Below are positions 2,489-64,000 of a stretch of 64,000 nt of DNA, piece by piece. The notes under the pieces are model-generated. The model was not told the origin of the DNA. It made no database searches and saw nothing but the letters and a program-made list of their open reading frames with translations. A program made the position numbers and the translations under genes. The stretch covers positions 23,835-87,834 of the forward strand of contig MVIG01000021.1 in NCBI GenBank assembly GCA_002086835.1, in the 5' to 3' direction. The stretch comes from Mycolicibacterium porcinum. GTDB taxonomy: Bacteria; Actinomycetota; Actinomycetes; Mycobacteriales; Mycobacteriaceae. Within the stretch, counting starts at the first letter, position 1; each line of letters starts with the position of its first letter.

Positions 2489-3927
2489 CCTCGGCGCTCA
2501 CCCACCTTGCGGCCGGCACCGAGCTGGTCGAACCGGTCGCAGGCGGAGCACAGCTGGTCCTGGCCGCACTGGCCGGTATCGGCCTGATCGTCGTGCTCAT
2601 CACGATCGTCAAGCTGCATCCCTTCCTGGCCTTGATCTTCGGCGCACTCACCGTCGGGATGGCCGCGGGGGAGAACATCAGCGACGTCCTCGCCTCGTTC
2701 TCCAGTGGGTTCGGCTCCACTGCCGCCAGCGTCGGGATACTGATCGCCCTTGGTGCGATGTTCGCCAAGCTGCTGGCCGACTCCGGGGGAGCGGACGAGA
2801 TCGTGGACACGATCGTCGGGCATGCGTCGCCGCGGGCGTTGCCGTGGGCAATGGCGTTGGTGGGCGCGATCATCGGCCTACCGATGTTCTTCGAGATCGG
2901 TCTGGTGCTGCTGATGCCGGTGATCTACCTGGTGGCCCGCCGTTCGCAACTGTCCTTGATCACGGTCGGCATTCCCGCACTGGCAGGCCTTTCGGCCATG
3001 CACGGATTCGTCCCACCGCATCCGGGACCCGTCGCCGCGATCTCACTGCTCAACGCCGACCTGGGTGTCACGCTGGCGCTTGGTGTGTTGGTGGCAATCC
3101 CGACGATCGTGGTGGCGGGACCGTTGTTCGGCAAGTTGGCCGGCCGCTGGGTGGTCCTCGAGGTTCCCGACCGGTTCGACGCCGCCGACCCCACGGGCGG
3201 GACCTCGAACGGCAGCGGCAGCGCCGGCACGACGGGAACGGCGACCGCTACGAAGACGCGACCGACGTTCGGCCTCACCATGTTCAGCGTGCTGCTACCG
3301 GTGGCATTGATGATGGGCAAGGCATTGGTCGACATCTTCGTCGACGACAAGTCGCACCTGCTGCGTCAGACGTTCGACATTCTCGGCCAGCCGTTGATGG
3401 CGCTGCTGATCGCGGTGGTGGTCGGAATGTTCACCCTCGGTGGCGGCGCGAAGATGACGCGCGACCAGATCGTGAAGTGCATTGAATCGTCACTGCCTCC
3501 GGTGGCCGGGATCATCCTGATCGTCGCGGCCGGTGGAGGGTTCAAGCAGGTGCTGGTCGACACCGGGATCGGCACCCTGCTCGCCGAATGGGCCAAGGGC
3601 GCCAACCTGTCGGTGGTCCTGCTGGCGTGGGTGCTGGCCGTACTGATCCGACTGGCGACAGGATCGGCCACCGTGGCCACCATCACCGCATCGTCGCTGA
3701 TGCTCGGCCTGGTCGAGGGAATGAGCACCGGCGAGGTCTCCCTGGTGGTGCTGGCCGTCGGCGCCGGCTCGTTGTTCTTCTCACACGTCAACGACGCCGG
3801 ATTCTGGCTCGTGAAGGAGTATTTCGGGATGACCGTCGGCCAGACGATCAAATCGTGGTCACTGATGGAGACGGCGCTGTCGGTGGCCGGTCTGGTTTTC
3901 GTCCTGCTGCTGGGGCTGGTGATCTGA
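2485..3927 (+). CDS. gntP: GntP-family gluconate/H+ symporter
   Basis: A 480-residue polytopic membrane protein with about twelve hydrophobic segments spread over its length. It has the family's conserved features: LHPFLALIFGALTVGMAAG near the N terminus, the GLSAMHGFVPPHPGPVAA motif near residue 170, and RLATGSATVATITASSLM in the C-terminal half. GntP proteins import gluconate or related sugar acids with protons. A Ser/Gly/Thr-rich hydrophilic loop at about residues 230-260 (TGGTSNGSGSAGTTG) is longer than in many relatives. It overlaps gntK by 4 bp and ends 18 nt before a perfect hairpin terminator. Gluconate is the likely substrate because of the adjacent kinase. Confidence 0.9.
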   Translation: MTSALTHLAAGTELVEPVAGGAQLVLAALAGIGLIVVLITIVKLHPFLALIFGALTVGMAAGENISDVLASFSSGFGSTAASVGILIALGAMFAKLLADSGGADEIVDTIVGHASPRALPWAMALVGAIIGLPMFFEIGLVLLMPVIYLVARRSQLSLITVGIPALAGLSAMHGFVPPHPGPVAAISLLNADLGVTLALGVLVAIPTIVVAGPLFGKLAGRWVVLEVPDRFDAADPTGGTSNGSGSAGTTGTATATKTRPTFGLTMFSVLLPVALMMGKALVDIFVDDKSHLLRQTFDILGQPLMALLIAVVVGMFTLGGGAKMTRDQIVKCIESSLPPVAGIILIVAAGGGFKQVLVDTGIGTLLAEWAKGANLSVVLLAWVLAVLIRLATGSATVATITASSLMLGLVEGMSTGEVSLVVLAVGAGSLFFSHVNDAGFWLVKEYFGMTVGQTIKSWSLMETALSVAGLVFVLLLGLVI

Positions 3928-5369: not shown

Positions 5370-6191
5370 TCACCGGCGTCCGGCCAGCAGGACTTCGCTG
5401 AGGTGGGTGGTGGTCTGGACACCGTCGTCGTAGCCGCCCTCGTCGCCGAGCGCGTTCATGATCGCCAATGTGTAGCGCTGCTGTGGTCCGGCGAAGCCGA
5501 CGCTGTTGACCACCCAGCCGCCCTGCTCGAGCGACCAACCGTCCTTGTTGCCGGGATTCATCGCAGGTCCGGCACCCCAAACGCCCCACTGCTGATTGGT
5601 GTCCACGTGCCGAAGCGCATCCACGATGCCGGCCGTCTCGGAGGGGGTGAGGCCGGTCAGGGTGTAGTTGATCAGCCGGTCCAGATCCTCGGGCGTGGCC
5701 TTCTGGAAGCCCCAATAGGGGTAGGTCCGGCTGAATCCGCGCTGCGGTTGCAGCCCGGTCATCCCGTAGGCCGGGAAATCGGCGTTGAACGCCTGGTGAT
5801 CGGCACCGCTGTACCGGGTCCACAGGGTGTCGGCGGCATCATCGTCCGACGAGTGCAGCATCGCCGTCATCAGGGCCCGGTCGGAGTCGGTCAGCGTCAC
5901 GGTGCCGGCGCGTTGTCTGGTCAGCAGGTCGACCACCATGGCGAGTTTGATCGTGGACGCCGTCCACACCTGTTCGCCCGCGTGCGCATTTCGGTAGACG
6001 GCGCCCGTGGTGCGGTCCCGCAGGACGTAGCCGACCGTGCCCGGGCGGGAGGTCAGATAGGCGTCGGCGGCGGCGATGCGTTCGGCGACGTCGCAATCCG
6101 TTCCGGCCGTGCAGGCCGCGTGCGCCGATGGAGTGGTGATGCCGCAGGCGGTGACGACGAGCACACAAATGCAGAACAGGAGGCGGCGCAT
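5370..6191 (-). CDS. Exported class A beta-lactamase-like / serine hydrolase (LppW-like)
   Basis: A 273-residue protein with an N-terminal signal sequence (hydrophobic LLFCICVLVVTAC, then SAHA before the likely cleavage site). The mature part has a penicillin-recognising fold: Ser79-x-x-Lys82 in TASTIKLAM, an SDD triad (LHSSDDDAAD) where class A enzymes have SDN, and NKDGW in the place of the KTG box. Overall similarity is to the mycobacterial LppW-type proteins, not to true BlaC penicillinases, and the altered SDN and KTG boxes make efficient beta-lactam hydrolysis doubtful. VVTAC could also act as a lipobox, so lipidation is possible. It is divergent from the metallo-hydrolase gene across 50 bp. 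Confidence 0.75.
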   Translation of the reverse strand: MRRLLFCICVLVVTACGITTPSAHAACTAGTDCDVAERIAAADAYLTSRPGTVGYVLRDRTTGAVYRNAHAGEQVWTASTIKLAMVVDLLTRQRAGTVTLTDSDRALMTAMLHSSDDDAADTLWTRYSGADHQAFNADFPAYGMTGLQPQRGFSRTYPYWGFQKATPEDLDRLINYTLTGLTPSETAGIVDALRHVDTNQQWGVWGAGPAMNPGNKDGWSLEQGGWVVNSVGFAGPQQRYTLAIMNALGDEGGYDDGVQTTTHLSEVLLAGRR

Positions 6192-6241
6192 GAGAGTAGC
6201 TTCGCAGGCGTGCGTCGCATTGTCGGCATCGACGGTGGGCG

Positions 6242-6940
6242 ATGAACTACGACTGGGAAGAGTTGGGCGCGGGTGTATGGCGCACCCGCCTCCCGTTTTT
6301 GGATGTGACGGTCGGACTCGTCAGCGGCGGTGATCAAGCCCTGTTGGTCGATTCCGGCACCACCCTGGCCGAAGCCCGCGGGATCGAGTCCGACGTGGCG
6401 GCCCTCGCCGGTCAACCCGTCGGACATGTCGTCCTGACACACAATCACTTTGACCATGTGCTGGGCTGCTCATGGTTCGAAGACGCCCAAATCCTCTGCG
6501 CACCAGAGGTTGTCGATACCTTGGCATCCGGTCGCGCGCATCTGCGCGCAGACGCGATAGGACACGGGGCCGATGTCGACGAAGTCGATCAGGCGATCTC
6601 GGCGCTGCCGGTGCCGACGCACGCGGTGTCCGGCGGCGATCTCGATCTCGGTGACCGGACGGTGCGCATCTGCCGTCCCGGCCGAGGCCACACCAGCCAC
6701 GACCTGATCGTCACAGTGCCGGGCAAACACCCGGTGGTGTTCTGCGGCGATCTCGTCGAACAGTCCGGTGATCCGGTCATCGACGCCGATTCAGATCTCG
6801 AGGCATGGCCGGCGACGCTGGAGGCGGTGCTCGCCGAAGGTGGGCCGGACGGAGTGTTCGTTCCCGGCCACGGCGCTGTGGTCGACGCCCATTTCATCCG
6901 GCTGCAGCAGCGCTGGCTGAGCGCCAGGCGGACTTGCTGA
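6242..6940 (+). CDS. Metallo-beta-lactamase-fold hydrolase
   Basis: A 232-residue cytoplasmic protein with the canonical MBL metal-binding motif THNHFDH (about residues 66-72), a later GRGHTSHD histidine, the FCGDLVE aspartate and the C-terminal VPGHG histidine. All ligands for a binuclear zinc site are therefore present. It belongs to the broad hydrolase branch (glyoxalase II/lactonase-like), and the substrate cannot be deduced. The next gene, an acyl-CoA thioesterase-like protein on the same strand, starts 44 nt downstream. Confidence 0.85.
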   Translation: MNYDWEELGAGVWRTRLPFLDVTVGLVSGGDQALLVDSGTTLAEARGIESDVAALAGQPVGHVVLTHNHFDHVLGCSWFEDAQILCAPEVVDTLASGRAHLRADAIGHGADVDEVDQAISALPVPTHAVSGGDLDLGDRTVRICRPGRGHTSHDLIVTVPGKHPVVFCGDLVEQSGDPVIDADSDLEAWPATLEAVLAEGGPDGVFVPGHGAVVDAHFIRLQQRWLSARRTC

Positions 6941-6984
6941 TCCCCGCCGCCGGATTTACTTAGCCCATATGCGACGATTCGCCG

Positions 6985-7803
6985 ATGACCGAGGTTGACG
7001 CCCATTTCGTGCAGTCCGAGCAGGACAGATTCCAGCCGACCCGCTTCGCGCAGAGCCACTGGGGTGAGGACCACCTCAACGGCCCCGCGCTGGTCGGACT
7101 GGCGGCACGCGCCCTCGAGTCGGCCTTCGGACTGCCCGAATTTCTGCCGGCCCGCCTGACGGTGGACCTCTTCAAGGCCGCGCGTGGGCTTCCCACCACG
7201 ACGAAGGTGGCGTTGGTCCGGGATGGGCGGCGGGTCCGCAACTCCGAATGCGAGCTGGTGCAGGACGGCGTGACCGTGGCGCGGGCGACGTTGGTGCAAT
7301 ACCGGTTGAGCGCGCCTCCGCGTGGTGAGGAGTGGACTGCGCCCACCCGGTTCGAACCCCCGACCGCACTCGACGGGGACCGGACCACGTACATGGGCAG
7401 CGACGAGGGCGGTTGGAGTCGCGCCATCGCCGAGCACCAGAATGCGTCCCGCAAGCGGTTCATGAACCGCACCATCACGGTAGTGCACGGGCAGCCGAAC
7501 TCGCCGTTCGTGCGGGCGGCGATGGCCGCGGAGGGCACCAGCCTGGTGACGAATCTCGGCACCGCAGGCGTCGGCTACATCAACGGTGACCTGACCGTCG
7601 CATTGTCGCGGTTGCCCGGTGACGAGTGGATCGGCGTTCAGGCGGATTCGCACTGGGCCGCGGAGGGCGTCGCGGTAGGGGCCTCAACGCTGTTCGACAG
7701 TGCCGGAGCATTCGGTACCGGTCTCGTCACGGCCATCAGCAACCCCGCGGCTCAGATCGACTTCTCCGACGACCCGTTTCCGGAGCGCACCGCTCCGAGG
7801 TGA
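6985..7803 (+). CDS. Acyl-CoA thioesterase family protein (double hotdog)
   Basis: A 272-residue protein without a signal peptide. It reads as two hotdog halves: an N-terminal half with SHWGEDHLNGPALVGLAARALE and LTVDLFKAARGLPTTTKV, and a C-terminal half with GTAGVGYINGDLTVALSR and EGVAVGASTLFDSAGAFG. This is the arrangement of actinobacterial TesB-like or acyl-CoA thioesterase-like proteins. Cleavage of acyl-CoA thioesters is family knowledge; the chain length and pathway are unknown. It sits in a same-strand run between an MBL hydrolase and an M42-type peptidase. Confidence 0.75.
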   Translation: MTEVDAHFVQSEQDRFQPTRFAQSHWGEDHLNGPALVGLAARALESAFGLPEFLPARLTVDLFKAARGLPTTTKVALVRDGRRVRNSECELVQDGVTVARATLVQYRLSAPPRGEEWTAPTRFEPPTALDGDRTTYMGSDEGGWSRAIAEHQNASRKRFMNRTITVVHGQPNSPFVRAAMAAEGTSLVTNLGTAGVGYINGDLTVALSRLPGDEWIGVQADSHWAAEGVAVGASTLFDSAGAFGTGLVTAISNPAAQIDFSDDPFPERTAPR

Positions 7804-55398: not shown

Positions 55399-56106
55399 GT
55401 GTCGAACCAGGTCGCTGCGCTCGAGTCGCTCGCCGCAGAGATCGAGGTGGTGTGGGGACCCCACAGCGTCGGTGCGGAACCGATGCCGCCCGTTGTGATC
55501 GCGCGGGCCGGCAGCCAGTGGTCTACCCACGTTGCGCCCACCCTTCCGAATGACATCAGGCACGCCGTGTGCGCGGTCACCGCAGGACTGTCCGACGACT
55601 TCGCAGAGTCCTTGTTCGACACGTTGGATCCGGTGCTGGCGCCCGTAACAGGTACGCTTCGCCGCGAGGTAACCCTGAGCTATGACTGTTCCCGCCCGGC
55701 GAGCGTCATTCCACCGGTTGGCGTTCGCCTGATCACCCGCGCCGACGCCGACACGCGGAGGTTGCGGATCGCGCCGGATTGGGGCACTCAATCTGACTGG
55801 GAACAGATACTGGACAACGAGTTCCCTTGGGCGGCAGCAACTGAAGGTAATCAGGTGTTGTCGATATGCGAAACGGCACGATGGTCGGCACACGGCGCCG
55901 AGGCCGGTGTGTGGACGCTGCCCGGAGCGCGGGGGCGTGGCCTGGCAGGCGCAGTGGTCGGCGCCTGGTCGTCCCAGTGTGCGGGGCGGGTTCCGCGGCT
56001 GTACTACAGCACCTCCGTGCACAACTTGTCCTCGCAGCGTGTTGCCGAGCGCCTAGGGCTATCTCGCATCGGGGAACTCTGGTTCCTGACCCCCGACTAC
56101 CATTAA
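55399..56106 (+). CDS. GNAT-like N-acetyltransferase family protein
   Basis: A 235-residue soluble protein. The C-terminal third has a degenerate GNAT acetyl-CoA site (TLPGARGRGLAGAVVGAW, matching R/Q-x-x-G-x-G/A) followed by YYSTSVHNLSSQRVAERLGL, where the final helix and strand of GNAT folds lie. The N-terminal half is less conserved and probably a second, degenerate repeat. The acceptor substrate is not predictable. GTG start at 55399. It ends 18 nt before a 7-bp perfect hairpin. Confidence 0.7.
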   Translation: MSNQVAALESLAAEIEVVWGPHSVGAEPMPPVVIARAGSQWSTHVAPTLPNDIRHAVCAVTAGLSDDFAESLFDTLDPVLAPVTGTLRREVTLSYDCSRPASVIPPVGVRLITRADADTRRLRIAPDWGTQSDWEQILDNEFPWAAATEGNQVLSICETARWSAHGAEAGVWTLPGARGRGLAGAVVGAWSSQCAGRVPRLYYSTSVHNLSSQRVAERLGLSRIGELWFLTPDYH

Positions 56107-56124
56107 TCGATCGCTGTCAAGAGT

Positions 56125-56141
56125 TCCGTTGCTTCAACGGA
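56125..56141. terminator. Short perfect hairpin after the GNAT-like gene
   Basis: TCCGTTG-CTT-CAACGGA: a 7-bp stem with a 3-nt loop 18 nt past the GNAT-like stop. Either a terminator or, lying 22 nt before the next tetR start, an operator. Confidence 0.45.
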
Positions 56142-56163
56142 GTCGGGGAGTGGGGATTGCGAC

Positions 56164-56910
56164 GTGGATACCGGGCCCGCTGCCTCTGCTGATGACTTCT
56201 CCGGCCAGCCGCATCGTGTCCACGATGCGCGATGGTTCGAGCACAACTCCGCACGCCGTGCGCATCTTGTCGAGGCTGCTGTTGCCCTGTTGGACGAGCA
56301 GCCGGTAGGCCGCGACGTGAGCGTCGAGGAGATCGCAAACCGGGCAGGCTTCGCCAGGTCGGTCTTCTACCGGCAGTTTGACAGTCGAGACGCCTTCGAT
56401 TGCCGGGTCCGCGCAGTCATCCTCGATCAGTGCTTCGAGATGTACGCGACGAACCTGGATTTCTCGACGGGATCGATCGACGAGATCGTCACCAGAACCG
56501 CGGGTGCCCTGCTTGCTTGGCGGATTGACCACCCTGCCTGGTATGCCTTTCTCGGCACTGGGCCGACTGATTACGACAATCCGGACCTGGACGCGGTACA
56601 GAGCCTCAGCCGCCGCTTCGAGACGCTCATCGATGTGCTCCTGTCCGAGATCGCGCAGTTGGTCGGCGTCGATTACGAACCATTGCGGACGCTGCCGTGT
56701 GCGGTGGTCACCATGGTCGATGGCACCTTCACCCGATGGCTGTCGGATCCGTCGCCGGTTCGCGGCAGGGACCAGCTCGTGCGGGACGTTGCCGACTACG
56801 CCTGGTACCTGCTCGATGGTGCGGCTCAGCGCAGTGGATTGTGCGCCGATCGCCATCAGACCGTTGACGAACTGATCGCTGAGGTGTCTGGCTCCGCAAG
56901 TCGGCAATAG
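56164..56910 (+). CDS. TetR-family regulator upstream of the diiron oxygenase
   Basis: A 248-residue regulator with a long N-terminal extension of about 25 residues before the helix-turn-helix (RRAHLVEAAVALLDEQPVGR, VSVEEIANRAGFARSVFYRQFDSRDAF). The large C-terminal domain contains WRIDHPAWYAFLGTGPTDYD and VVTMVDGTFTRWL, similar to regulators of mycobacterial monooxygenase genes. GTG start at 56164. The next gene on the same strand is the first AurF-like oxygenase, and the 228-bp gap between them carries two identical-arm palindromes, the obvious operator candidates. Confidence 0.85.
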   Translation: MDTGPAASADDFSGQPHRVHDARWFEHNSARRAHLVEAAVALLDEQPVGRDVSVEEIANRAGFARSVFYRQFDSRDAFDCRVRAVILDQCFEMYATNLDFSTGSIDEIVTRTAGALLAWRIDHPAWYAFLGTGPTDYDNPDLDAVQSLSRRFETLIDVLLSEIAQLVGVDYEPLRTLPCAVVTMVDGTFTRWLSDPSPVRGRDQLVRDVADYAWYLLDGAAQRSGLCADRHQTVDELIAEVSGSASRQ

Positions 56911-57036
56911 ATGCAATAGATATCGAGACATATTGTGGCAGCGCACATTCGCAGCAGGCCGCTCCGGGGCGAACCCGGCCACCACGGGTTATCTAATCAG
57001 CGCGCCGCCGCCGCGCTGATACCGCCGGCGGCACCC

Positions 57037-57042
57037 TTGACA
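57037..57042 (+). promoter_or_regulatory. Perfect -35 hexamer TTGACA before the first AurF-like gene
   Basis: TTGACA matches the -35 consensus exactly. A -10 element would fall in or next to operator 1 (57049-57065), where CCATAG/CATAGA is the best candidate at a somewhat long spacing. Repressor binding would therefore occlude the promoter. Confidence 0.4.
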
Positions 57043-57048
57043 GGCGTA

Positions 57049-57065
57049 TGGGACAGGGTGTCCCA
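57049..57065. promoter_or_regulatory. Operator 1 candidate TGGGAC-N5-GTCCCA
   Basis: TGGGACAGGGTGTCCCA, a perfect 6-bp inverted repeat with a 5-nt centre, 74-90 nt before the AurF-like ATG. Confidence 0.6.
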
Positions 57066-57078
57066 TAGAGACAACGTG

Positions 57079-57095
57079 TGGGACCAGCGGTCCCA
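57079..57095. promoter_or_regulatory. Operator 2 candidate TGGGAC-N5-GTCCCA
   Basis: TGGGACCAGCGGTCCCA repeats the arms of operator 1 exactly with a different centre. The copies are 30 bp apart (about three helical turns), suitable for cooperative binding on one face. The 5-nt centre separates them from the 4-nt-centred DosR-type boxes farther on. Confidence 0.6.
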
Positions 57096-57138
57096 CTAAG
57101 TGAGTTCGGGTACTCGACTGCCTAGGAGAAATGACGTC

Positions 57139-58155
57139 ATGGCATTAACGAAGGCATTCCGCCGCTGGCGGGACGGAATGCAGGTCAGCGGTGACGCGGA
57201 GTACTGCACAAGGCTGGAGACTCTCTCGGGCGGATCGGTGCGCCGGAACTTCAATCCTTACCTGGACATCCCGTGGGACTCGCCCGAGTTCGAGGTGACC
57301 GAGAACGATCCGCGCTGGGTACTGGCCACCGAAAGCGACCCCATCGGAAGTAGCGCGTGGTATCAGGCGCAGCCGCTGGAGAAGCAGATTGCGATCGGTA
57401 TGTGGCGTCAGGCGAATGTCGCGAAGGCCGGCCTGCAATTCGAGAACATGCTCATCCGGGGAATCCTCAACTACACATTCTGGGTGCCCAACGGCAGCCC
57501 CGAATACCGGTACTGCCTGCACGAGGCGGTCGAAGAGTGCAACCACACCCTGATGTTCCAAGAGATGGTGAATCACGCGGGCGTGGATGTTCCGGGTTTG
57601 GCGCGGTGGCTCAGATGGATGCACTCACTGCCCCCGCTGTTCGCCAGTCCCATGCCGGTGTTCTTCTTCATGATGGTGCTCTGCGGCGAAGAGCCGATCG
57701 ACCACATGCAGAAGTCCATTCTGCGTGAGGGCAAACCGATACACCCCATCATGGAGCGCGTGATGGCGATCCACGTCGCCGAGGAAGCCCGGCACATCTC
57801 GTTTGCCCACGAATTTCTGCGTCGGCGGATCCCGGAGATGCGGCGGCTCAACCGATTCGGGTTGTCGATCATCTATCCGCTCAGCTTCCGCCTGGCAGCC
57901 ACGCTCATCGCCAAGCCGCCACGCTCCTTCTGGCGTGAATTCGACATTCCTCGATCGGTGAAGAAGGAGATCTACTGGCGAGCACCGGAATCCAGGGCGA
58001 TGTTGCGTGAGATCTACGGCGATGTACGGATGCTTGCCGAGGACACCGGTCTGATGAACCCGGTTGCCAAGATCCTCTGGCGCATTCTGCGCATCGACGG
58101 TCCCGCGTCCCGCTACCGCAGCGAACCCGCGCGCCAGGCGGTCGCCGTCGCCTGA
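57139..58155 (+). CDS. AurF-like diiron oxygenase, paralog 1
   Basis: A 338-residue helical protein starting at ATG 57139 (AGGAG upstream). Metal ligands expected for AurF-type arylamine N-oxygenases are in place: Glu102 (LQFENML), Glu133/His136 (VEECNHTLMF), Glu184 or 185 (CGEEPIDH), and His212/Glu216/His219 (IHVAEEARHISF), including the extra third histidine spacing of AurF. AurF oxidises aryl amines to nitro compounds. The substrate here is unknown, and mycobacterial members may act on lipids or other amines. A second protein of exactly the same length, about two thirds identical by eye, is encoded at 60.1 kb. Control is probably by the upstream TetR through the twin palindromes. Confidence 0.82.
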   Translation: MALTKAFRRWRDGMQVSGDAEYCTRLETLSGGSVRRNFNPYLDIPWDSPEFEVTENDPRWVLATESDPIGSSAWYQAQPLEKQIAIGMWRQANVAKAGLQFENMLIRGILNYTFWVPNGSPEYRYCLHEAVEECNHTLMFQEMVNHAGVDVPGLARWLRWMHSLPPLFASPMPVFFFMMVLCGEEPIDHMQKSILREGKPIHPIMERVMAIHVAEEARHISFAHEFLRRRIPEMRRLNRFGLSIIYPLSFRLAATLIAKPPRSFWREFDIPRSVKKEIYWRAPESRAMLREIYGDVRMLAEDTGLMNPVAKILWRILRIDGPASRYRSEPARQAVAVA

Positions 58156-58307
58156 ACGTTCTCGACGAACGACGTGCGTGAGGGTCGCGGAGAGCGGCTT
58201 CGAGCTGCGGACGCAGCGTGCCTGCCCTTGATGCACGCCCACGTGAGCAAGTGGCTCGCCACGTCCGCAGCAATATCCACGCTAGGCGGGACGGTCGCCG
58301 CGCCCTA

Positions 58308-58321
58308 GGGTCTCTTGGCCC
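58308..58321. promoter_or_regulatory. DosR-type box (GGGTCTCTTGGCCC)
   Basis: Fits GGGnC-N4-GnCCC, with flanking TA on both sides extending the symmetry. A second, imperfect site starts 20 nt later, resembling the paired boxes of DosR promoters. Confidence 0.45.
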
Positions 58322-58505
58322 TACTTGAGAACTTTCGTCCCGAAACAGGGGACGCCCCGCTGCGGAAGTTCAGCGGGGCGGCTGCGGCGGCGCGACCGAC
58401 TACTAGGGAGGTCGAGGCTGTCGGGCCCTCGGCCCAGTCGCGCTCCCTTTGACCAATTCGAACCGCAGCAATACCAAACTAACTCACTGATGCATGAGTT
58501 GCGTA

Positions 58506-58519
58506 GGGACTTTCGTCCC
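58506..58519. promoter_or_regulatory. DosR-type box, perfect (GGGACTTTCGTCCC)
   Basis: Identical to the core of the mycobacterial dormancy box (GGGACTTTnGTCCC). It lies in DNA with no annotated gene immediately downstream on the plus strand until the 48-residue membrane protein at 58705. Confidence 0.75.
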
Positions 58520-58631
58520 CAAGACGATCGCTGAAAGACCCTATGTCGGTGCGTGTTTCGGAACCTCAGCCAGGGTCCCCTCGGGCACCAGATCGCCTTC
58601 GGCGCATACACAGATCGCGAACGCAGATATA

Positions 58632-58645
58632 GGGCCTTGTGGCCC
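58632..58645. promoter_or_regulatory. DosR-type box before the 48-residue membrane protein (GGGCCTTGTGGCCC)
   Basis: Fits the spaced pattern, 60-73 nt upstream of the ATG at 58705, the distance expected for an activator site above a -35 region. Confidence 0.45.
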
Positions 58646-58704
58646 TTTCGGCACACCACTGCAGTAGGCCAAACTGGGTCTCCCGTTATCGAGAGGCCCA
58701 TCTG

Positions 58705-58851
58705 ATGGCTCAATACCGCGCACCGATGTGGACGTGGTTGCTACTTGTCGTGGCGCTGCTCCTCATCTTCGGGCGGTGCAGCGACGGTGACCGTGAACTT
58801 TCGAACCACGGACAGATCGCGGTGTTGAGATCGACAGGTGCCGCGTCGTAG
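58705..58851 (+). CDS. 48-residue single-pass membrane protein
   Basis: A very short gene with good support: ATG 58705, GAGAGG 8 nt upstream, TAG stop. The product has a short polar N terminus (MAQYRAPM), one strongly hydrophobic helix (WTWLLLVVALLLIFG) and a polar tail with one cysteine. A DosR-type box lies about 60 nt upstream. Small membrane proteins often modulate transporters or respiratory complexes. I do not recognise this one. Confidence 0.6.
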   Translation: MAQYRAPMWTWLLLVVALLLIFGRCSDGDRELSNHGQIAVLRSTGAAS

Positions 58852-58905
58852 CGAGCGGGCAAGCCTGGGGCTCCGTCAACGAGGATCAGTTTTGGTTTTC
58901 GACGC

Positions 58906-59838
58906 CTAGGGCTGACCACTGCGGTTCGCCGACGCACTCGACGGCACGATCATCACCGGGCACGGCGCATGATGAATGAGGGCGTGACTCGTCGAGCCCA
59001 GGACTGCACCCACAAATTCACTGCGGCCCCGACTTCCAACGACAATCAGTTGCGCTTCATGCGCGTAACGCATCAATGCCCAGGCCGTCCGGCCGGTAGT
59101 CACCGCGCAATGAGCGACAACCTGGGGATGGCGTGCGCTCCACCGTGCGATGCGCTCATTCAGCAGTTCCTGCTGCTGCGCTTGGTATTCCGGCCACCAC
59201 TGTGGTTGGGCTGCCGGATCCGCGAGGCTGCCGGGCAATTCACCACAACTGAAGACGGCGGTGAGATCGGCGCCGCGTAATGCCGCTTCCTCGAATGCCC
59301 ACTCGGTGGCGTTGTCGGCGGCCTCGGAGCTGTCGACTCCTACCACGACCGTCCGTCGCTGTTGTAGTTGAGAATCGTTGCGGGCCCCACGCACGACGAC
59401 GACCGGTCCGTACCCGTGCGCACTCACAGATACCGCCACCGACCCGGCATGAACGGCTCCCTTCGATTGGGTGCGGCTCGATCCCACCACCGTCAGCAGT
59501 GCCTGGCGAGACAATGCAATCAGCGTCGGCAGAGGTCGGCCCGTGACCCACGTTGTCTCAACCGCTACCTCCGGGCAGGCTGCGGCGACCTCCAGTTGAG
59601 CCTCGGCCAGAAGGTCAACAGCCCTGGACTCTCGGTACTTCAGTATTCGGCGCTGAGACCAAGGACCCAACTCGATCTCTGCCTCGCCGGGATCCACGAT
59701 GTGGACCAGTCGCACCGGGACGCTGCGTCGTTCGGCCTCGCGAGCCGCCCACACCGCCGCGTCGAGGGCGGACATCGATCCGTCAACGCCGACAAGTAGG
59801 TTGGCGGCGCTGACTGCCATGTTCGCCATCCCGGGCAA
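58906..59838 (-). CDS. Universal stress protein with two USP domains
   Basis: A 310-residue tandem USP protein. Domain 1 begins LLVGVDGSMSALDAAVWAAR and has the ATP-type segment VVGSSRTQSKGAVHAGSV; domain 2 begins TVVVGVDSSEAADNATEWAF and has VVGSRGRSEFVGAVLGSTS, the G-x2-G-x9-G-S/T nucleotide motif. The TTG at 59838, with GAGGAGG 5 nt upstream, is the best start (earlier ATG at 59874 has no ribosome-binding site). In mycobacteria two-domain USPs of this type are typical DosR-regulon members. It is divergent from the second AurF-like gene across a region holding two DosR-type boxes. Confidence 0.9.
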   Translation of the reverse strand: MPGMANMAVSAANLLVGVDGSMSALDAAVWAAREAERRSVPVRLVHIVDPGEAEIELGPWSQRRILKYRESRAVDLLAEAQLEVAAACPEVAVETTWVTGRPLPTLIALSRQALLTVVGSSRTQSKGAVHAGSVAVSVSAHGYGPVVVVRGARNDSQLQQRRTVVVGVDSSEAADNATEWAFEEAALRGADLTAVFSCGELPGSLADPAAQPQWWPEYQAQQQELLNERIARWSARHPQVVAHCAVTTGRTAWALMRYAHEAQLIVVGSRGRSEFVGAVLGSTSHALIHHAPCPVMIVPSSASANRSGQP

Positions 59839-59962
59839 GTGAACCTCCTCGATCTCGTTGCGGCGCTGTGACATCGCGATGGAACCGAGTCGGCTCGCTG
59901 CTCCTCGCGTTCAATCAGCCCCCGTCACACCCAGACTGGAGCACCTAGGTAGACCGGGTGAA

Positions 59963-59976
59963 GGGTCATTGGTCCT
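59963..59976. promoter_or_regulatory. DosR-type box, one mismatch (GGGTCATTGGTCCT)
   Basis: Matches GGGnC-N4-GnCCC except for the final base. It lies in the divergent region between the USP and the second AurF-like gene. Confidence 0.4.
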
Positions 59977-60042
59977 CAACGCAAGCAACCGCTCGTCGAC
60001 AGCACCTCGGCCGCCGTCCGAGCGTGATCGTCCCCGCCAATA

Positions 60043-60056
60043 GGGTCTTTCGACCC
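60043..60056. promoter_or_regulatory. DosR-type box before AurF paralog 2 (GGGTCTTTCGACCC)
   Basis: A perfect inverted repeat; with flanks the arms extend to 8 bp (ATAGGGTC-TTTC-GACCCTAT). It lies 82-95 nt before the ATG at 60138 and shares the TTTC centre with the perfect box at 58506. Confidence 0.65.
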
Positions 60057-60137
60057 TATCCGCTGATGGGGATACCGCCGGTACCGTTTGTGTACACGAA
60101 GCGGGTGAATGTAAACCCCACATGGGAGGTTGGACCG

Positions 60138-61154
60138 ATGGCTCGGACCAGAATGATCAGGCGCTGGCGCAAGAACATGGACGTCAGCGATGACACCCAG
60201 TACGCCGACATGCTCGCGACCTTGTCGGAGGGGTCGGTGCGTCGAAGTTTCAATCCGTACACAGACATCGATTGGGACGCAAAGGCGTTCGCAGTCAAGG
60301 CAGACGATCCGCGCTGGATCCTGCCCGAATCGGACCCGATCGGCGCTCACGCGTGGTACCAGGCCCAGCCGGTGGAGCGGCAGATCGAGATCGGCATGTG
60401 GCGCCAGGCCAACGTCGCCAAGGTCGGTGAGCAGTTCGAGAACATCCTGATCCGCGGCCTGATGGAGTACTCGTTCTGGGTGCCCAACGGCTCGCCGGAG
60501 TACCGGTACTGCCTGCACGAATCGATTGAGGAGTGCAACCACAATCTGATGTTCCAGGAGATGGTGAACCGGATCGGCATGGATGTGCCGGGCATGCCGC
60601 GGCTGCTCAAGTGGCTGCAGCCGCTCATCCCGTTGACCGCGGGCCCGCTGCCGATTCCGTTCTTCTTCGGCATTCTCGCCGGTGAAGAGCCCATCGATCA
60701 CACGCAGAAGAACGTGCTGCGCGAGGGTAAGGCCCTGCATCCGATCATGGAGCGGGTGATGGCGATCCACGTCGCCGAGGAGGCCCGCCACATGTCATTC
60801 GCGCACCAGTACCTGCACAAGCGGGTGCCCAACCTGCGTCGCCGGCAGCGCTGGATCCTGTCGCTGTTCGTGCCGCTGACCATGCGCATCCTGTGCTCGG
60901 CCATCATCGTGCCGCCGCGGGCGTTCTGGAAGGAATTCGACATCCCGCGCTCGGTGCGCAAGGACCTGTTTTTCGGTTCGCCCGAATCGCGCAAGATTCT
61001 TCGGGACATGTTCGGCGACGTCCGGATGCTGTGCCACGACACCGGCCTGATGAACCCGATCGCCAAGCTGATGTGGCGGATCTGCAAGATCGACGGGCCG
61101 CCGAGCCGCTACCGTAGCGAGCCGCAACGCCAGCACCTACTTTCGGCCGTGTAG
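60138..61154 (+). CDS. AurF-like diiron oxygenase, paralog 2
   Basis: A 338-residue protein, same length as paralog 1 and about two thirds identical by eye. ATG 60138 is preceded by GGGAGG. All AurF-type ligands are kept: EQFENIL, IEECNHNLMF, AGEEPIDH and IHVAEEARHMSF. Conserved blocks around them (FWVPNGSPEYRYCLHE, ESDPIGAHAWYQAQP, FDIPRSVRKDL) are shared with paralog 1. Upstream control differs: a DosR-type box here, twin N5 palindromes there. This suggests the same chemistry deployed under different signals. The physiological substrate is unknown. The flavin monooxygenase gene follows 110 nt downstream. Confidence 0.82.
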   Translation: MARTRMIRRWRKNMDVSDDTQYADMLATLSEGSVRRSFNPYTDIDWDAKAFAVKADDPRWILPESDPIGAHAWYQAQPVERQIEIGMWRQANVAKVGEQFENILIRGLMEYSFWVPNGSPEYRYCLHESIEECNHNLMFQEMVNRIGMDVPGMPRLLKWLQPLIPLTAGPLPIPFFFGILAGEEPIDHTQKNVLREGKALHPIMERVMAIHVAEEARHMSFAHQYLHKRVPNLRRRQRWILSLFVPLTMRILCSAIIVPPRAFWKEFDIPRSVRKDLFFGSPESRKILRDMFGDVRMLCHDTGLMNPIAKLMWRICKIDGPPSRYRSEPQRQHLLSAV

Positions 61155-61264
61155 CCGCCGTCCGCTGCGGAACCCGGCTGGGACTCTGGCCATTCCGGCA
61201 GCGTCGACGACCCGACAGGAAATACAGCACCGATAATCCCGTGCATCGAAAGGCTTGGTTGGCT

Positions 61265-62773
61265 GTGATTGATATCGAACACCTCGACGTGCTGATCATC
61301 GGTGCCGGTATCTCCGGCATCGGTGCCGCCTACTACCTGCAGCGCGAACACCCCGGGCGCAGCTACGCGATCCTGGAGGCCCGCGGTGCAACCGGCGGCA
61401 CCTGGGACCTGTTCCGCTATCCGGGCATTCGGTCGGACTCCGACCTGCACACCTTCGGCTACGAGTTCAAGCCGTGGCGTGATGAGTACGCGATCGCCAC
61501 GGCCGACAAGATCCTGGCCTACCTCCGCGAGACCGCCTCGGAGAACGGCATCGACCGCCACATCCGGTTCCACCACAAGGTGCTCGGCGCAGCCTGGGAT
61601 ACCGCGCAGGCGCGCTGGACAGTGGTCATCGAGCGGACCGAGGGCGAGGGAGCAGACCCAGAGCTGGTACAGGTTTCGGCGAGCTGGCTGTTCTGTGGTG
61701 GTGGGTACTACCGCTACGACCAGGGCTACACCCCGCACTTCGAGGGACAGGAGCGGTTCGCCGGCCAGATCGTGCACCCCCAGCACTGGCCCGAGGACCT
61801 CGACTACGCAGGCAAGAAGGTCGTGGTGATCGGCAGTGGTGCCACCGCGGTCACGCTGGTCCCGTCGATGGCGGGCACCGCGGCTCACGTCACCATGTTG
61901 CAGCGCTCACCCACCTATGTGATGCCGGTGCCGGCCAAGGACAAGTTTGCCAACACCGCCAAGCGGCTGCGGGGCGACGAGCGTGGCTATGCGCTGACTC
62001 GGCGCAAGAACATCGTCAAACAACGTGGTGTCTACACGTTCTGCCAGACGTTTCCGAAGGCTGCGCGGGCCTTGATCCGCTGGGTCAATGCAGCCAAGTT
62101 GCCCGCCGGGTATCCGGTGAACGAGCATTTCGGCCCTCGCTACAACCCGTGGGATCAGCGGCTATGTGCGGTGCCCGACGGTGATCTGTTCGCCGTGCTC
62201 GGTGCGGGCAGCGCCTCGGTGGTCACCGACCGCATCGCGACATTTACCGAGACGGGCATCCTGCTGGAGTCCGGACGCGAGCTCGACGCCGACATCATCG
62301 TCACCGCAACGGGTCTGAACATCCAGTTGCTCGGCGGAATGACGCTCACGGTAGACGGTGAGCCGATCGACCTGTCGAAAACCGTGGCCTACAAGGGAAT
62401 GATGCTGTCCGGCGTTCCCAACTTCGTGCTCGCGTTCGGCTACACGAACTCGTCATGGACGCTCAAGATCGACCTGTTGTGCGAGCATTTCTGCCGGCTG
62501 CTGAGCCATATGGACAGCAACGGCTACGACATGGCGTGGCCGGTCGCCGATCCTGAGATGGAAACTCTTCCGCTGCTGGACTTTTCGGCAGGATACGTGC
62601 AGCGGGCTCTGGGCGAGCTGCCGCGCCGCGGCGTCGACGGTCCGTGGGTGATGTCGATGAACTACTTCCATGACGTGGCGATGCTCCGAAACGGGCCCGT
62701 GGTCGACCCGAATCTCGCGTTCGAGAAGGTTGCGACGAAGACCCGCTCGGAGACGGCCGGTGGACTGAACTGA
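61265..62773 (+). CDS. Flavin-containing (Baeyer-Villiger-type) monooxygenase
   Basis: About 502 residues. The FAD-binding loop is VLIIGAGISGIGAAYYLQ, followed by GGTWDLFRYPGIRSDSD typical of this group. The BVMO fingerprint F-x-G-x3-H-x3-W-P is exact (FAGQIVHPQHWP), and the NADPH loop is VVVIGSGATAVTLVP. These enzymes insert oxygen next to ketones or oxidise N/S atoms; EthA and MymA of M. tuberculosis are relatives that activate thioamide drugs. GTG 61265 is used as start, with TTG 61259 (GAAAGG 5 nt upstream) equally possible. It probably belongs to the same transcriptional neighbourhood as AurF paralog 2 and is followed by a lipoprotein gene 5 nt later. Confidence 0.88.
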   Translation: MIDIEHLDVLIIGAGISGIGAAYYLQREHPGRSYAILEARGATGGTWDLFRYPGIRSDSDLHTFGYEFKPWRDEYAIATADKILAYLRETASENGIDRHIRFHHKVLGAAWDTAQARWTVVIERTEGEGADPELVQVSASWLFCGGGYYRYDQGYTPHFEGQERFAGQIVHPQHWPEDLDYAGKKVVVIGSGATAVTLVPSMAGTAAHVTMLQRSPTYVMPVPAKDKFANTAKRLRGDERGYALTRRKNIVKQRGVYTFCQTFPKAARALIRWVNAAKLPAGYPVNEHFGPRYNPWDQRLCAVPDGDLFAVLGAGSASVVTDRIATFTETGILLESGRELDADIIVTATGLNIQLLGGMTLTVDGEPIDLSKTVAYKGMMLSGVPNFVLAFGYTNSSWTLKIDLLCEHFCRLLSHMDSNGYDMAWPVADPEMETLPLLDFSAGYVQRALGELPRRGVDGPWVMSMNYFHDVAMLRNGPVVDPNLAFEKVATKTRSETAGGLN

Positions 62774-62778
62774 TTCCC

Positions 62779-63399
62779 GTGGACAGACTCATTGTGGTCG
62801 CCGTCGCCGCCGCGCTGTTGGCCGCTTGCAGCAGCACAGAGGAAAACAAGCAAGCGACCTCGGCAGCCGCCCAACGCGCCATGGGAACACCGACGCCGGC
62901 GCCCGCGGCCGCACACTGCGCAGATGTGAGGGCTGACCGGTGGATCGATGTTCCCCTGGCCGCCGGGCAACCGACCATGCGGATTCCGCAGCCACCCAAT
63001 TGGGAATCAGAACCCGAGTTCATCAAGCCGCCGATGAAGCTCGTGCTGCGCAACAATGCACTGGCCGACGGAAACGGAGTGCCTGCGATCACCGTTGCCA
63101 CCGGTGAGGCGATCAAGCCGGACCAGACAGCTGAAGAGATGTTGAACGACAGCATTGCGGGGTTCGCGAACATCGGCGCCCAGAACATCGTGCAGCGGCC
63201 GGTGACCGTGTGCGGATACTCCGCCCGCAGAGTCACCTATAGCGCGGACACAGTGGGTGCCACTGTAGTCGCTGTCGCTGTTCCCCTCGAAGGCAAGATG
63301 TCCGTCGTCATCGTGGCCGCACAGAGCGTGACACCGCAGAACCGCACATTCCGACTGGACTCGGAGCGCGTCTTGTCCGGGATACGTATCGGGTCCTGA
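62779..63399 (+). CDS. LpqN/LpqT-family lipoprotein
   Basis: A 206-residue precursor. A short signal (LIVVAVAAALLAAC) ends in a lipobox LAAC, followed by a Ser/Thr/Ala/Pro-rich linker. The mature domain matches LpqN/LpqT: WIDVPLAAGQPTMRIPQPPNWE, then MKLVLRNNALADGNGVPAITV and late MSVVIVAAQSVTPQNRTF. LpqN-type proteins are anchored outside the cytoplasmic membrane and have been linked to envelope biogenesis and host interaction. GTG start, 5 nt after the monooxygenase. Confidence 0.85.
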   Translation: MDRLIVVAVAAALLAACSSTEENKQATSAAAQRAMGTPTPAPAAAHCADVRADRWIDVPLAAGQPTMRIPQPPNWESEPEFIKPPMKLVLRNNALADGNGVPAITVATGEAIKPDQTAEEMLNDSIAGFANIGAQNIVQRPVTVCGYSARRVTYSADTVGATVVAVAVPLEGKMSVVIVAAQSVTPQNRTFRLDSERVLSGIRIGS

Positions 63400-63417
63400 C
63401 AAATGCCCTTACCGGCC

Positions 63418-63431
63418 GGGACTTCCGCCCC
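63418..63431. promoter_or_regulatory. DosR-type box before whiB (GGGACTTCCGCCCC)
   Basis: Fits GGGnC-N4-GnCCC with the favoured GGGACTT left half. It is 67-80 nt upstream of the whiB ATG. Confidence 0.55.
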
Positions 63432-63497
63432 TAGTGGCAGCAAAGTGCGCGGTGGTCGAATCGTTGTATCTGATCGGTAACTGCGAAAGGAGCATAG

Positions 63498-63842
63498 ATG
63501 GCCCGCCTTCCCGCACCTCACCGTGCTGGTCCGATGGACACCTGCCAGCTGCCGATTCCCGAGTCGGCCTCACAGGATTGGCGTTCACGGGGCAGCTGCC
63601 GCGACGTTGACCCGATGGTGTTCTATGGTCCCGATCGCGAAAGGGCCGCGGCCCGACGACGACGTGTGGCCAGTGCCAAAGCGATCTGCCAGACGTGTCC
63701 GGTAAAGCGCGCCTGCCTCAGACAGTCGCTGAGATTCCCTGAACCGCACGGGGTCTGGGGAGGCCTCACCGCCGATGAACGCAGCAACATACTGATGGAA
63801 CGTGCGCTCGCGGGCAGAGAAGTAGGCAGTGCGGCAACGTAG
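63498..63842 (+). CDS. WhiB-family iron-sulfur regulator
   Basis: A 114-residue protein. The four cysteines for the [4Fe-4S] cluster are Cys34 (GSCRDVDP), Cys64 and Cys67 (ICQTCPV), and Cys73 (RACLRQ), the C-x29-C-x2-C-x5-C pattern of WhiB proteins. GVWGG at residues 85-89 is the beta-turn needed to contact sigma factor. The extended N terminus (about 12 residues before MDTCQ) may reflect a later real start at 63534, but AAGGAG 5 nt before the ATG at 63498 supports the longer form. WhiB proteins sense NO, O2 or redox state. No AT-hook tail is visible, so it is not WhiB7. A DosR-type box lies upstream. Confidence 0.88.
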   Translation: MARLPAPHRAGPMDTCQLPIPESASQDWRSRGSCRDVDPMVFYGPDRERAAARRRRVASAKAICQTCPVKRACLRQSLRFPEPHGVWGGLTADERSNILMERALAGREVGSAAT

Positions 63843-63895
63843 TGGGGCGAGCCGGGGGAGCGGCACCGCGTGATCTGGTGAGTGCCGGCCATGCA

Positions 63896-64000
63896 TCAGA
63901 CCATCGTGTCGGCCGGGGGCAGACCGAACTCGTTGTTGCCGAAGATCAGGTAGGCACGCTCGGGATCGTTGGCGGCGTGCACGCGGCCGGCGTGCGCGTC
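63896..64000 (-). CDS. C-terminal end of an unidentified protein (partial)
   Basis: The last 34 codons of a minus-strand gene read in frame from the window edge to TGA at 63896-63898. They contain HAGRVHAANDPERAYLIFG and end NEFGLPPADTMV. Codon usage and composition are normal for the surrounding DNA. The fragment is too short for me to name a family. It is convergent with the whiB gene. Confidence 0.5.
   Translation of the reverse strand, partial: DAHAGRVHAANDPERAYLIFGNNEFGLPPADTMV

Follow-up and report, generated by a model that had tools for sequence, protein, structure and literature searches.

The window, a 64,000-nt stretch of contig C17 (positions 23835-87834) from a 6.96-Mb Mycolicibacterium porcinum genome (G000), carries near its right-hand end a 5.1-kb cluster of DosR-type boxes among genes for two AurF-type diiron oxygenases, a two-domain universal stress protein (USP), a small membrane protein, a flavin monooxygenase, a putative lipoprotein and a WhiB-family regulator. 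On the evidence assembled below, this stretch is probably an accessory DosR-controlled hypoxia/nitric oxide island of fortuitum-type mycobacteria, two of whose boxes would serve structured RNAs rather than proteins. The window ends (position 64000) where the contig ends, and island genes past WhiB are out of view in this genome. The features are as follows, boxes being given without strand.

56164-56910, plus: TetR-family regulator, neighbour of AurF1 (Pfam TetR_N, 1.1e-07)
57139-58155, plus: AurF1, a diiron oxygenase of the AurF type that has no DosR box (Pfam AurF, 6.8e-105)
58204-58271, minus: candidate small RNA B, a single long stem-loop opening GCUGCGG; fold found in the window and in G238
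58279-58284, minus: -10 hexamer TAGCGT of RNA B, 33 bp from the centre of box 58308
58308-58321: DosR-type box, RNA B; GGGTCTCTTGGCCC; aligned in one of five relatives (G238)
58328-58341: weaker DosR-type box, 20 bp from 58308, with its 20-mer at 58325; aligned in one of five relatives (G348)
58354-58469, minus: candidate small RNA A, with closing stem GCUGCGG/CCGCAGC, an inner stem and a 3' GC-rich terminator-like hairpin
58476-58481, minus: -10 hexamer TAGTTT of RNA A, 34 bp from the centre of box 58506
58506-58519: DosR-type box, likely RNA A promoter; GGGACTTTCGTCCC; aligned in four of five relatives
58632-58645: DosR-type box, small membrane protein; aligned in five of five relatives, with one more mismatch in G348
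58670-58675, plus: -10-like CAAACT, small membrane protein, 34 bp from the box centre; missing from G327
58705-58851, plus: 48-aa small membrane protein, its single membrane span judged by eye
58906-59874, minus: two-domain USP (Pfam Usp, 4.2e-46; PDB TB31.7, 5.2e-36)
59933-59938, minus: -10-like CAGTCT, USP, 34 bp from the centre of box 59963
59963-59976: DosR-type box, USP; GGGTCATTGGTCCT; aligned in four of five relatives
60043-60056: DosR-type box, AurF2; GGGTCTTTCGACCC; aligned in five of five relatives
60082-60087, plus: -10 hexamer TACCGT, AurF2, 35 bp from the box centre; identical in six of six genomes
60138-61154, plus: AurF2, AurF-type diiron oxygenase (Pfam AurF, 8.6e-112)
61265-62773, plus: flavin monooxygenase, Baeyer-Villiger-like (Pfam FMO-like)
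62779-63399, plus: putative lipoprotein, its N-terminus read by eye
63418-63431: DosR-type box, WhiB; GGGACTTCCGCCCC; aligned in four of five relatives, absent in G327
63498-63842, plus: WhiB-family regulator (Pfam Whib, 3.2e-21)

The earlier note on this DNA had started from five 14-mers of the form GGGNC-N4-GNCCC (58308, 58506, 58632, 60043 and 63418), all of which are present, as is the one-mismatch copy that it had placed at 59963. The "dormancy-box core" that it read at 58506 is borne out by the sequence, and box 60043 does have perfect 8-bp arms about a TTTC centre (ATAGGGTC-TTTC-GACCCTAT). All five 14-mers fall within the 910 non-coding bases of the stretch and none within its 5478 coding bases, a count made over six genes with the 48-aa gene excluded. 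The note's further claim, that several boxes lie 60-95 nt before starts, holds for box 58632 (73 nt to the ATG at 58705), box 59963 (89 nt to the USP start at 59874), box 60043 (95 nt to the AurF2 ATG at 60138) and box 63418 (80 nt to the WhiB ATG at 63498), measured from box start, but not for 58308 and 58506, which have no protein start at that distance. A further box, 58325/58328, was absent from the note and came to light in a 20-mer search.

The rarity of these boxes elsewhere in the genome supports their being a genuine set. The relaxed pattern GGGNC-N4-GNCCC occurs 220 times in 6.96 Mb, which predicts 0.16 occurrences per 5.1 kb; the Poisson probability of finding at least the five seen in the island stretch is ~8e-7, or ~1e-3 once multiplied by the number of 5.1-kb bins, figures that are only a rough guide because the stretch was picked by its own matches. 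Dinucleotide shuffles of the 910 non-coding bases average 0.053 occurrences, with none of 10,000 reaching five. Tighter patterns are more concentrated still: 4 of the genome's 12 copies of GGGNCTTNNGNCCC and 2 of its 4 copies of GGGNCTTTNGNCCC lie here, as do 5 of the 74 genome entries for GGGNCTTTNGNCCC with one mismatch allowed. The DosR consensus 20-mer TTSGGGACTWWAGTCCCSAA is matched with three or fewer mismatches at only two places in the genome, 58503 and 58325, both in the island stretch. A matrix built from the relatives' box sites, and thus partly circular, most of its training sites being orthologues, ranks 60043, 58506, 58632, 58308 and 59963 as the top five of the 64 kb; four of these outscore the best of 60 Markov sequences (15.06), with 59963 (14.73) just under it. 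Against the stringent DosR consensus GGGACTTNNGNCCCT published in PMC6448022, box 63418 is an exact match, boxes 58506, 58632 and 60043 each have one mismatch, 58308 has two and 59963 has four.

The genome also encodes the regulator and the sensor that such boxes would call for. The response regulator at L135:8556-9203 (in a reading frame open from 8373) matches DevR (3c3w) with an E value of 2e-111, and its DNA-binding domain contains a 31-residue stretch, including the recognition helix, that is identical to the M. tuberculosis protein, with differences in the neighbouring residues. The kinase at L135:9756-11480 matches the solved GAF and ATPase domains of DevS/DosT, as befits a DosS-like heme-GAF sensor. 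Boxes with one mismatch to GGGNCTTTNGNCCC adjoin this locus as well, one at L135 7060, ahead of a nitroreductase-like gene preceding dosR, and two, 9213 and 9235, in the gap that separates dosR from the gene after it. Elsewhere in the genome, a ThiF/nitroreductase-like gene and the gene of a GAF-GGDEF-EAL protein have two box-like sites (L136:5045 and 5273) in their vicinity, and a one-mismatch box at L141 5929 lies upstream of a cytochrome oxidase subunit I gene that starts at 6025 (locus 5929-7755).

In published DosR targets the proximal site overlies the -35 element (PMC3029386), and ANNNT is said to predominate in M. smegmatis promoters (PMC6448022). The 43 boxes counted for geometry come from the island genomes and the dosR locus; 31 of them carry, on one side or both, a [TC]ANNNT hexamer 33-35 bp from the box centre, and of the 23 TANNNT hexamers lying 25-44 bp from boxes, 19 are at 33-35 bp; these counts repeat orthologues, so that the events are not independent, include five degenerate orthologous boxes added by hand, and leave out boxes 3126 and 9289 of L018 as well as 1069 and 2698 of L234. 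In the window, AurF2, the small membrane protein, the USP, RNA A and RNA B each have a box where the -35 would be and a -10 hexamer at this fixed distance. For WhiB, on the other hand, none of the five genomes that have its box shows a [TC]ANNNT at that spacing. Downstream of the AurF2 box, 30 bases (60069-60098) are invariant in all six genomes, more than a -10 element needs, and these may possibly include a second regulatory signal.

Alignment of the stretch with five relatives (L018, G348, G327, G230 and G238) places five of the seven boxes in four or five of them. Long matches to the island were found in at least five of 396 sampled genus genomes (G000 itself, G348, G327, G230 and G238), and among 80 AurF2-related loci L018 (M. 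senegalense) and L023 (M. houstonense) carry it, the small protein having an altered start codon in the latter. In M. senegalense, feoA and feoB are inserted between the USP and AurF2 genes (L018:3126-5419), with boxes upstream of FeoA and FeoB; box 59963 aligns in the other four relatives, another DosR-type box, at 3126, lying upstream of the USP here. A further box in L018 is near a fatty-acid desaturase, on its 3' side. In the extended islands of relatives, a box lies in L209 between a KshA-type Rieske oxygenase and a metallo-beta-lactamase/SCP2/Rieske protein, the KshA-type gene being followed by an acyl-CoA-dehydrogenase-like gene that is presumably HsaA-like. L211 and L212 resemble L209 by their protein N-termini; a VKOR protein in L212 and cytochrome oxidase subunit I in L211 each have a box upstream. 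That many of these enzymes use oxygen hints at a low-oxygen isozyme set. A plasmid origin was considered and set aside: megablast of 56100-64000 against plasmids returned four records, each covering 8% of the query at 72-74% identity.

The two boxes without a protein start at 60-95 nt most likely belong to RNA. The DNA separating AurF1 from the small protein contains a non-coding block (58344-58472) with 90-96% identity to its counterparts in G348, G230 and G238, the surrounding DNA being 76% identical in G230 and G238; the block occurs in M. senegalense as well and is missing in G327. A coding reading fails, the alignment gaps not being multiples of three. On the minus strand, candidate RNA A begins 6 bases past a TANNNT hexamer and ends in a ten-pair GC hairpin. 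Across six rows, 97.5% of the cells of its structure are paired, as opposed to at most 57.6% in slid controls, and four pairs are changed on both sides, a number matched by 2 of 500 shuffles, slid versions giving 0 or 1. The closing stem itself varies in compensated fashion, being GCUGCAG/CUGCAGC in M. senegalense and GCACGAC/GUCGUGC in G238. A covariance model of RNA A finds six matches in 4 of the 396 genus genomes, all of them island carriers and all matches beside a box; the sixth is a new one, a short G238 paralogue (copy 2) that had been misaligned and excluded from the model, which recovered it nonetheless. M. houstonense (L234) and G238 (L235 and L212) have additional copies, with the box on the same side. 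We conclude that box 58506 most likely drives the minus-strand RNA A and that box 58308 may drive a second, RNA B, with 58328 as a possible second DosR site for the RNA B promoter. The earlier note had counted both boxes towards its island; they would most likely serve minus-strand RNAs in place of protein genes.

Several related searches gave little. No Rfam family matched 56000-64000 above threshold, and a sub-threshold snoRNA match (18.9 bits against a gathering value of 50) is read as chance. Short matches to the RNA A element occur in 19 of the 396 genomes in all, and most of those elsewhere in the genus have no box nearby. A genus-wide search for the RNA-promoter design, CCGCAGCA-N32-38-GGGNC-N4-GNCCC, gave 80 matches in 71 of the 396 genomes; most of these matches are chance, because the reversed control gives more (~190 by hand count). 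When a TAGGGNC box is demanded, only 7 matches remain, in G000, G348, G230 and G238 (judged by eye).

Whether the AurF enzymes belong to this circuit, as the earlier note had it, depends on the copy: the second, AurF2, has a box, while a box scan upstream of AurF1 lists none. AurF2 covers the full PF11583 profile (1-282 of 282) and is an AurF-type diiron oxygenase by that profile, its N-oxygenase activity being putative; no solved structure is related to it by sequence at E 0.001, and its nearest named relatives in a homologue search are fortuitum-type Mycolicibacterium species. The same genome has a core paralogue (L213:4646-5662) at whose locus no box was found, and none was found in the 400 bp upstream of any of 78 fetched non-island AurF homologues. 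In a tree built on 52 of the 89 AurF rows, all six AurF2 proteins of the island genomes fall into one clade (Shimodaira-Hasegawa-like approximate likelihood ratio test, SH-aLRT, 100) nested within the fortuitum-type core AurF group (SH-aLRT 91), AurF1 standing in a clade apart. The pattern fits a single duplication in which only the new copy acquired a box. The core aurF gene is followed by one with a ferredoxin-like N-terminus (by eye; L213:2958-5662), possibly its electron donor; AurF2, by contrast, precedes the flavin monooxygenase. Upstream of AurF1, 57048-57097 holds the palindromes GGGAC-AGGGT-GTCCC and GGGACC-AGC-GGTCCC, of a spacing unlike that of DosR boxes; these TetR-type palindromes are perhaps operators of the adjacent TetR regulator (56164-56910), which itself probably stands outside the DosR circuit.

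For the remaining genes, the two-domain USP beside a box is as the earlier note described it, and it resembles TB31.7. The first half of the flavin monooxygenase resembles steroid and phenylacetone monooxygenases in the PDB. The WhiB protein has WhiB3 (8cyf, 6.5e-20) as nearest solved relative and carries, by eye, the WhiB motif C-X29-C-X2-C-X5-C with GVWGG. No Pfam family matched the putative lipoprotein or the 70-aa frame that encloses the 48-aa protein.

Chance matches in GC-rich DNA would be the simplest account of the boxes, and the relaxed 14-mer is indeed not enriched over the whole 64 kb (6 occurrences against a shuffle mean of 4.76, with 36 of 100 shuffles reaching 6); five of those six, however, fall within the 5.1 kb, and with the non-coding shuffles, the share of GGGNCTTNNGNCCC sites and the conservation of the boxes all against it, we regard this account as exceedingly improbable. 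Chance is rejected for the set and may still apply to 58325 and, by matrix score alone, for 63418. Another NarL/LuxR-type regulator, or an unrelated dyad-binding protein, might use the boxes instead, the genome having 28 GerE-domain matches; given their agreement with the published consensus, the similar boxes adjoining the genome's own dosR and the DNA-binding stretch identical to that of M. tuberculosis, this seems quite unlikely. A more serious rival, if still an unlikely one, accepts the protein-gene boxes as DosR sites and takes block 58344-58472 for a terminator plus regulatory DNA, or for the small membrane protein's leader on the plus strand. In its favour, the hairpin at the 3' end does not vary and looks like a terminator, consensus folding of the plus strand also works, with three two-sided changes, and in single-sequence folding the plus strand does better than shuffles (z -2.27) where the minus strand does not (z -0.76). 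Against this rival stand the alignment gaps, which mark the block as non-coding, the minus-strand TANNNT lying 34 bp from the box in all five genomes with the main copy, a helix pair in G348 that is G-U on the minus strand and A-C on the plus strand, and the box on the same side in both RNA A paralogues; a plus-strand RNA, like a coding reading, is disfavoured.

The reading of the stretch as a DosR-controlled island with its own RNAs, which we prefer, has in turn a number of observations to contend with beyond those folding scores. The matrix scores of the WhiB box (7.95) and of 58325 (7.63) are within chance, and 12 of the 43 boxes lack [TC]ANNNT at 33-35 bp, among them all five WhiB boxes and two of three near dosR. 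Most island promoters show one clear box, unlike published DosR targets, which often carry two close together; the 58308/58328 pair, 20 bp apart, is the nearest approach to that arrangement. G327, although an island carrier, lacks boxes 58506 and 63418 and RNA A, while 58308 aligns only in G238 and 58328 only in G348. The RNA A covariation score is reached by 34 of 500 shuffles and its count of further pair types by 359 of 500, the underlying six related rows having an effective number of 1.02; RNA B is based on two sequences, those of the window and G238. The case is weakened, too, because five of the six covariance-model matches are training rows and a carrier, G327, is without the RNA. Taken with the rarity of the boxes, the resident DosR/DosS pair, conservation and promoter geometry, these points leave AurF2, the USP and the small membrane protein likely to be under DosR control. 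For WhiB, whose box aligns in relatives and lacks the promoter geometry, such control is plausible, so that this part of the earlier note's proposal stands less firmly.

On our reading of this island, in which transcription, DosR binding, the inducing signal and what the enzymes and RNAs do are inferred from sequence, falling oxygen would lead the DosS-like heme kinase to phosphorylate DosR, which would bind the palindromic boxes at the -35 position of SigA-type promoters. It would then switch on AurF2 with the flavin monooxygenase and the lipoprotein, likely as an operon, the two-domain USP and the 48-aa membrane protein, probably WhiB and, on the minus strand, RNA A (box 58506) and with less certainty RNA B (box 58308). 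As a duplicate re-wired to low oxygen, AurF2 would descend from the core oxygenase, whose other copies have no box. A bolder formulation, to which we give even odds, is that a DosR-driven family of structured small RNAs has spread by duplication within an accessory hypoxia island that also collects oxygen-using isozymes re-wired to low oxygen and has its own RNA regulators. That collection would comprise AurF2, the flavin monooxygenase and, behind boxes in relatives, FeoAB, cytochrome oxidase subunit I and the KshA-type Rieske oxygenase with its HsaA-like partner.

If this is so, the island would supply oxygen-dependent metabolism with a substitute set for times of low oxygen. Oxygen-consuming enzymes induced when oxygen is scarce make a testable paradox. 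The duplicated oxygenase with a DosR promoter, next to fetched core copies without one, would make a compact natural case of regulon growth and hints at the rewiring of copied genes for low-oxygen life. RNAs of one family, several copies of which lie next to DosR boxes in non-tuberculous species, would, moreover, make the roles of DosR small RNAs approachable in fast-growing laboratory mycobacteria. Our searches of an open-access library turned up no earlier report of the island or of RNAs A and B.

The island shares with the known DosR (DevR) regulon the regulator, the heme sensor kinase, the box sequence, the box at -35 and a TB31.7-related two-domain USP. It differs in its cargo of an AurF-type oxygenase, a Baeyer-Villiger-like monooxygenase, WhiB and structured RNAs, and in being accessory. 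That DosR regulons vary widely across species agrees with what the work on the species-specific DosRS regulon of M. abscessus reports (PMC10034137), in whose main text no word starting "oxygenase" occurs, a search that "monooxygenase" would escape. Closer to hand, the core mycobacterial aurF paralogue is 91% identical to AurF2 but, unlike it, boxless. The nearest likeness for RNA A is DrrS/MTS1338 of M. tuberculosis, a DosR-regulated small RNA that is 109 nt long with a DosR site 34 bp upstream of its start (PMC5360333); RNAs A and B, whose -10 elements stand 33-34 bp from the box centre and whose starts are predicted, would be in line with this. RNA A resembles DrrS by design, with a DosR site just upstream, a GC-rich 5' stem and a similar size; unlike DrrS as there described, its closing stem joins both ends of the body and is followed by a terminator-like hairpin, and it has paralogues.

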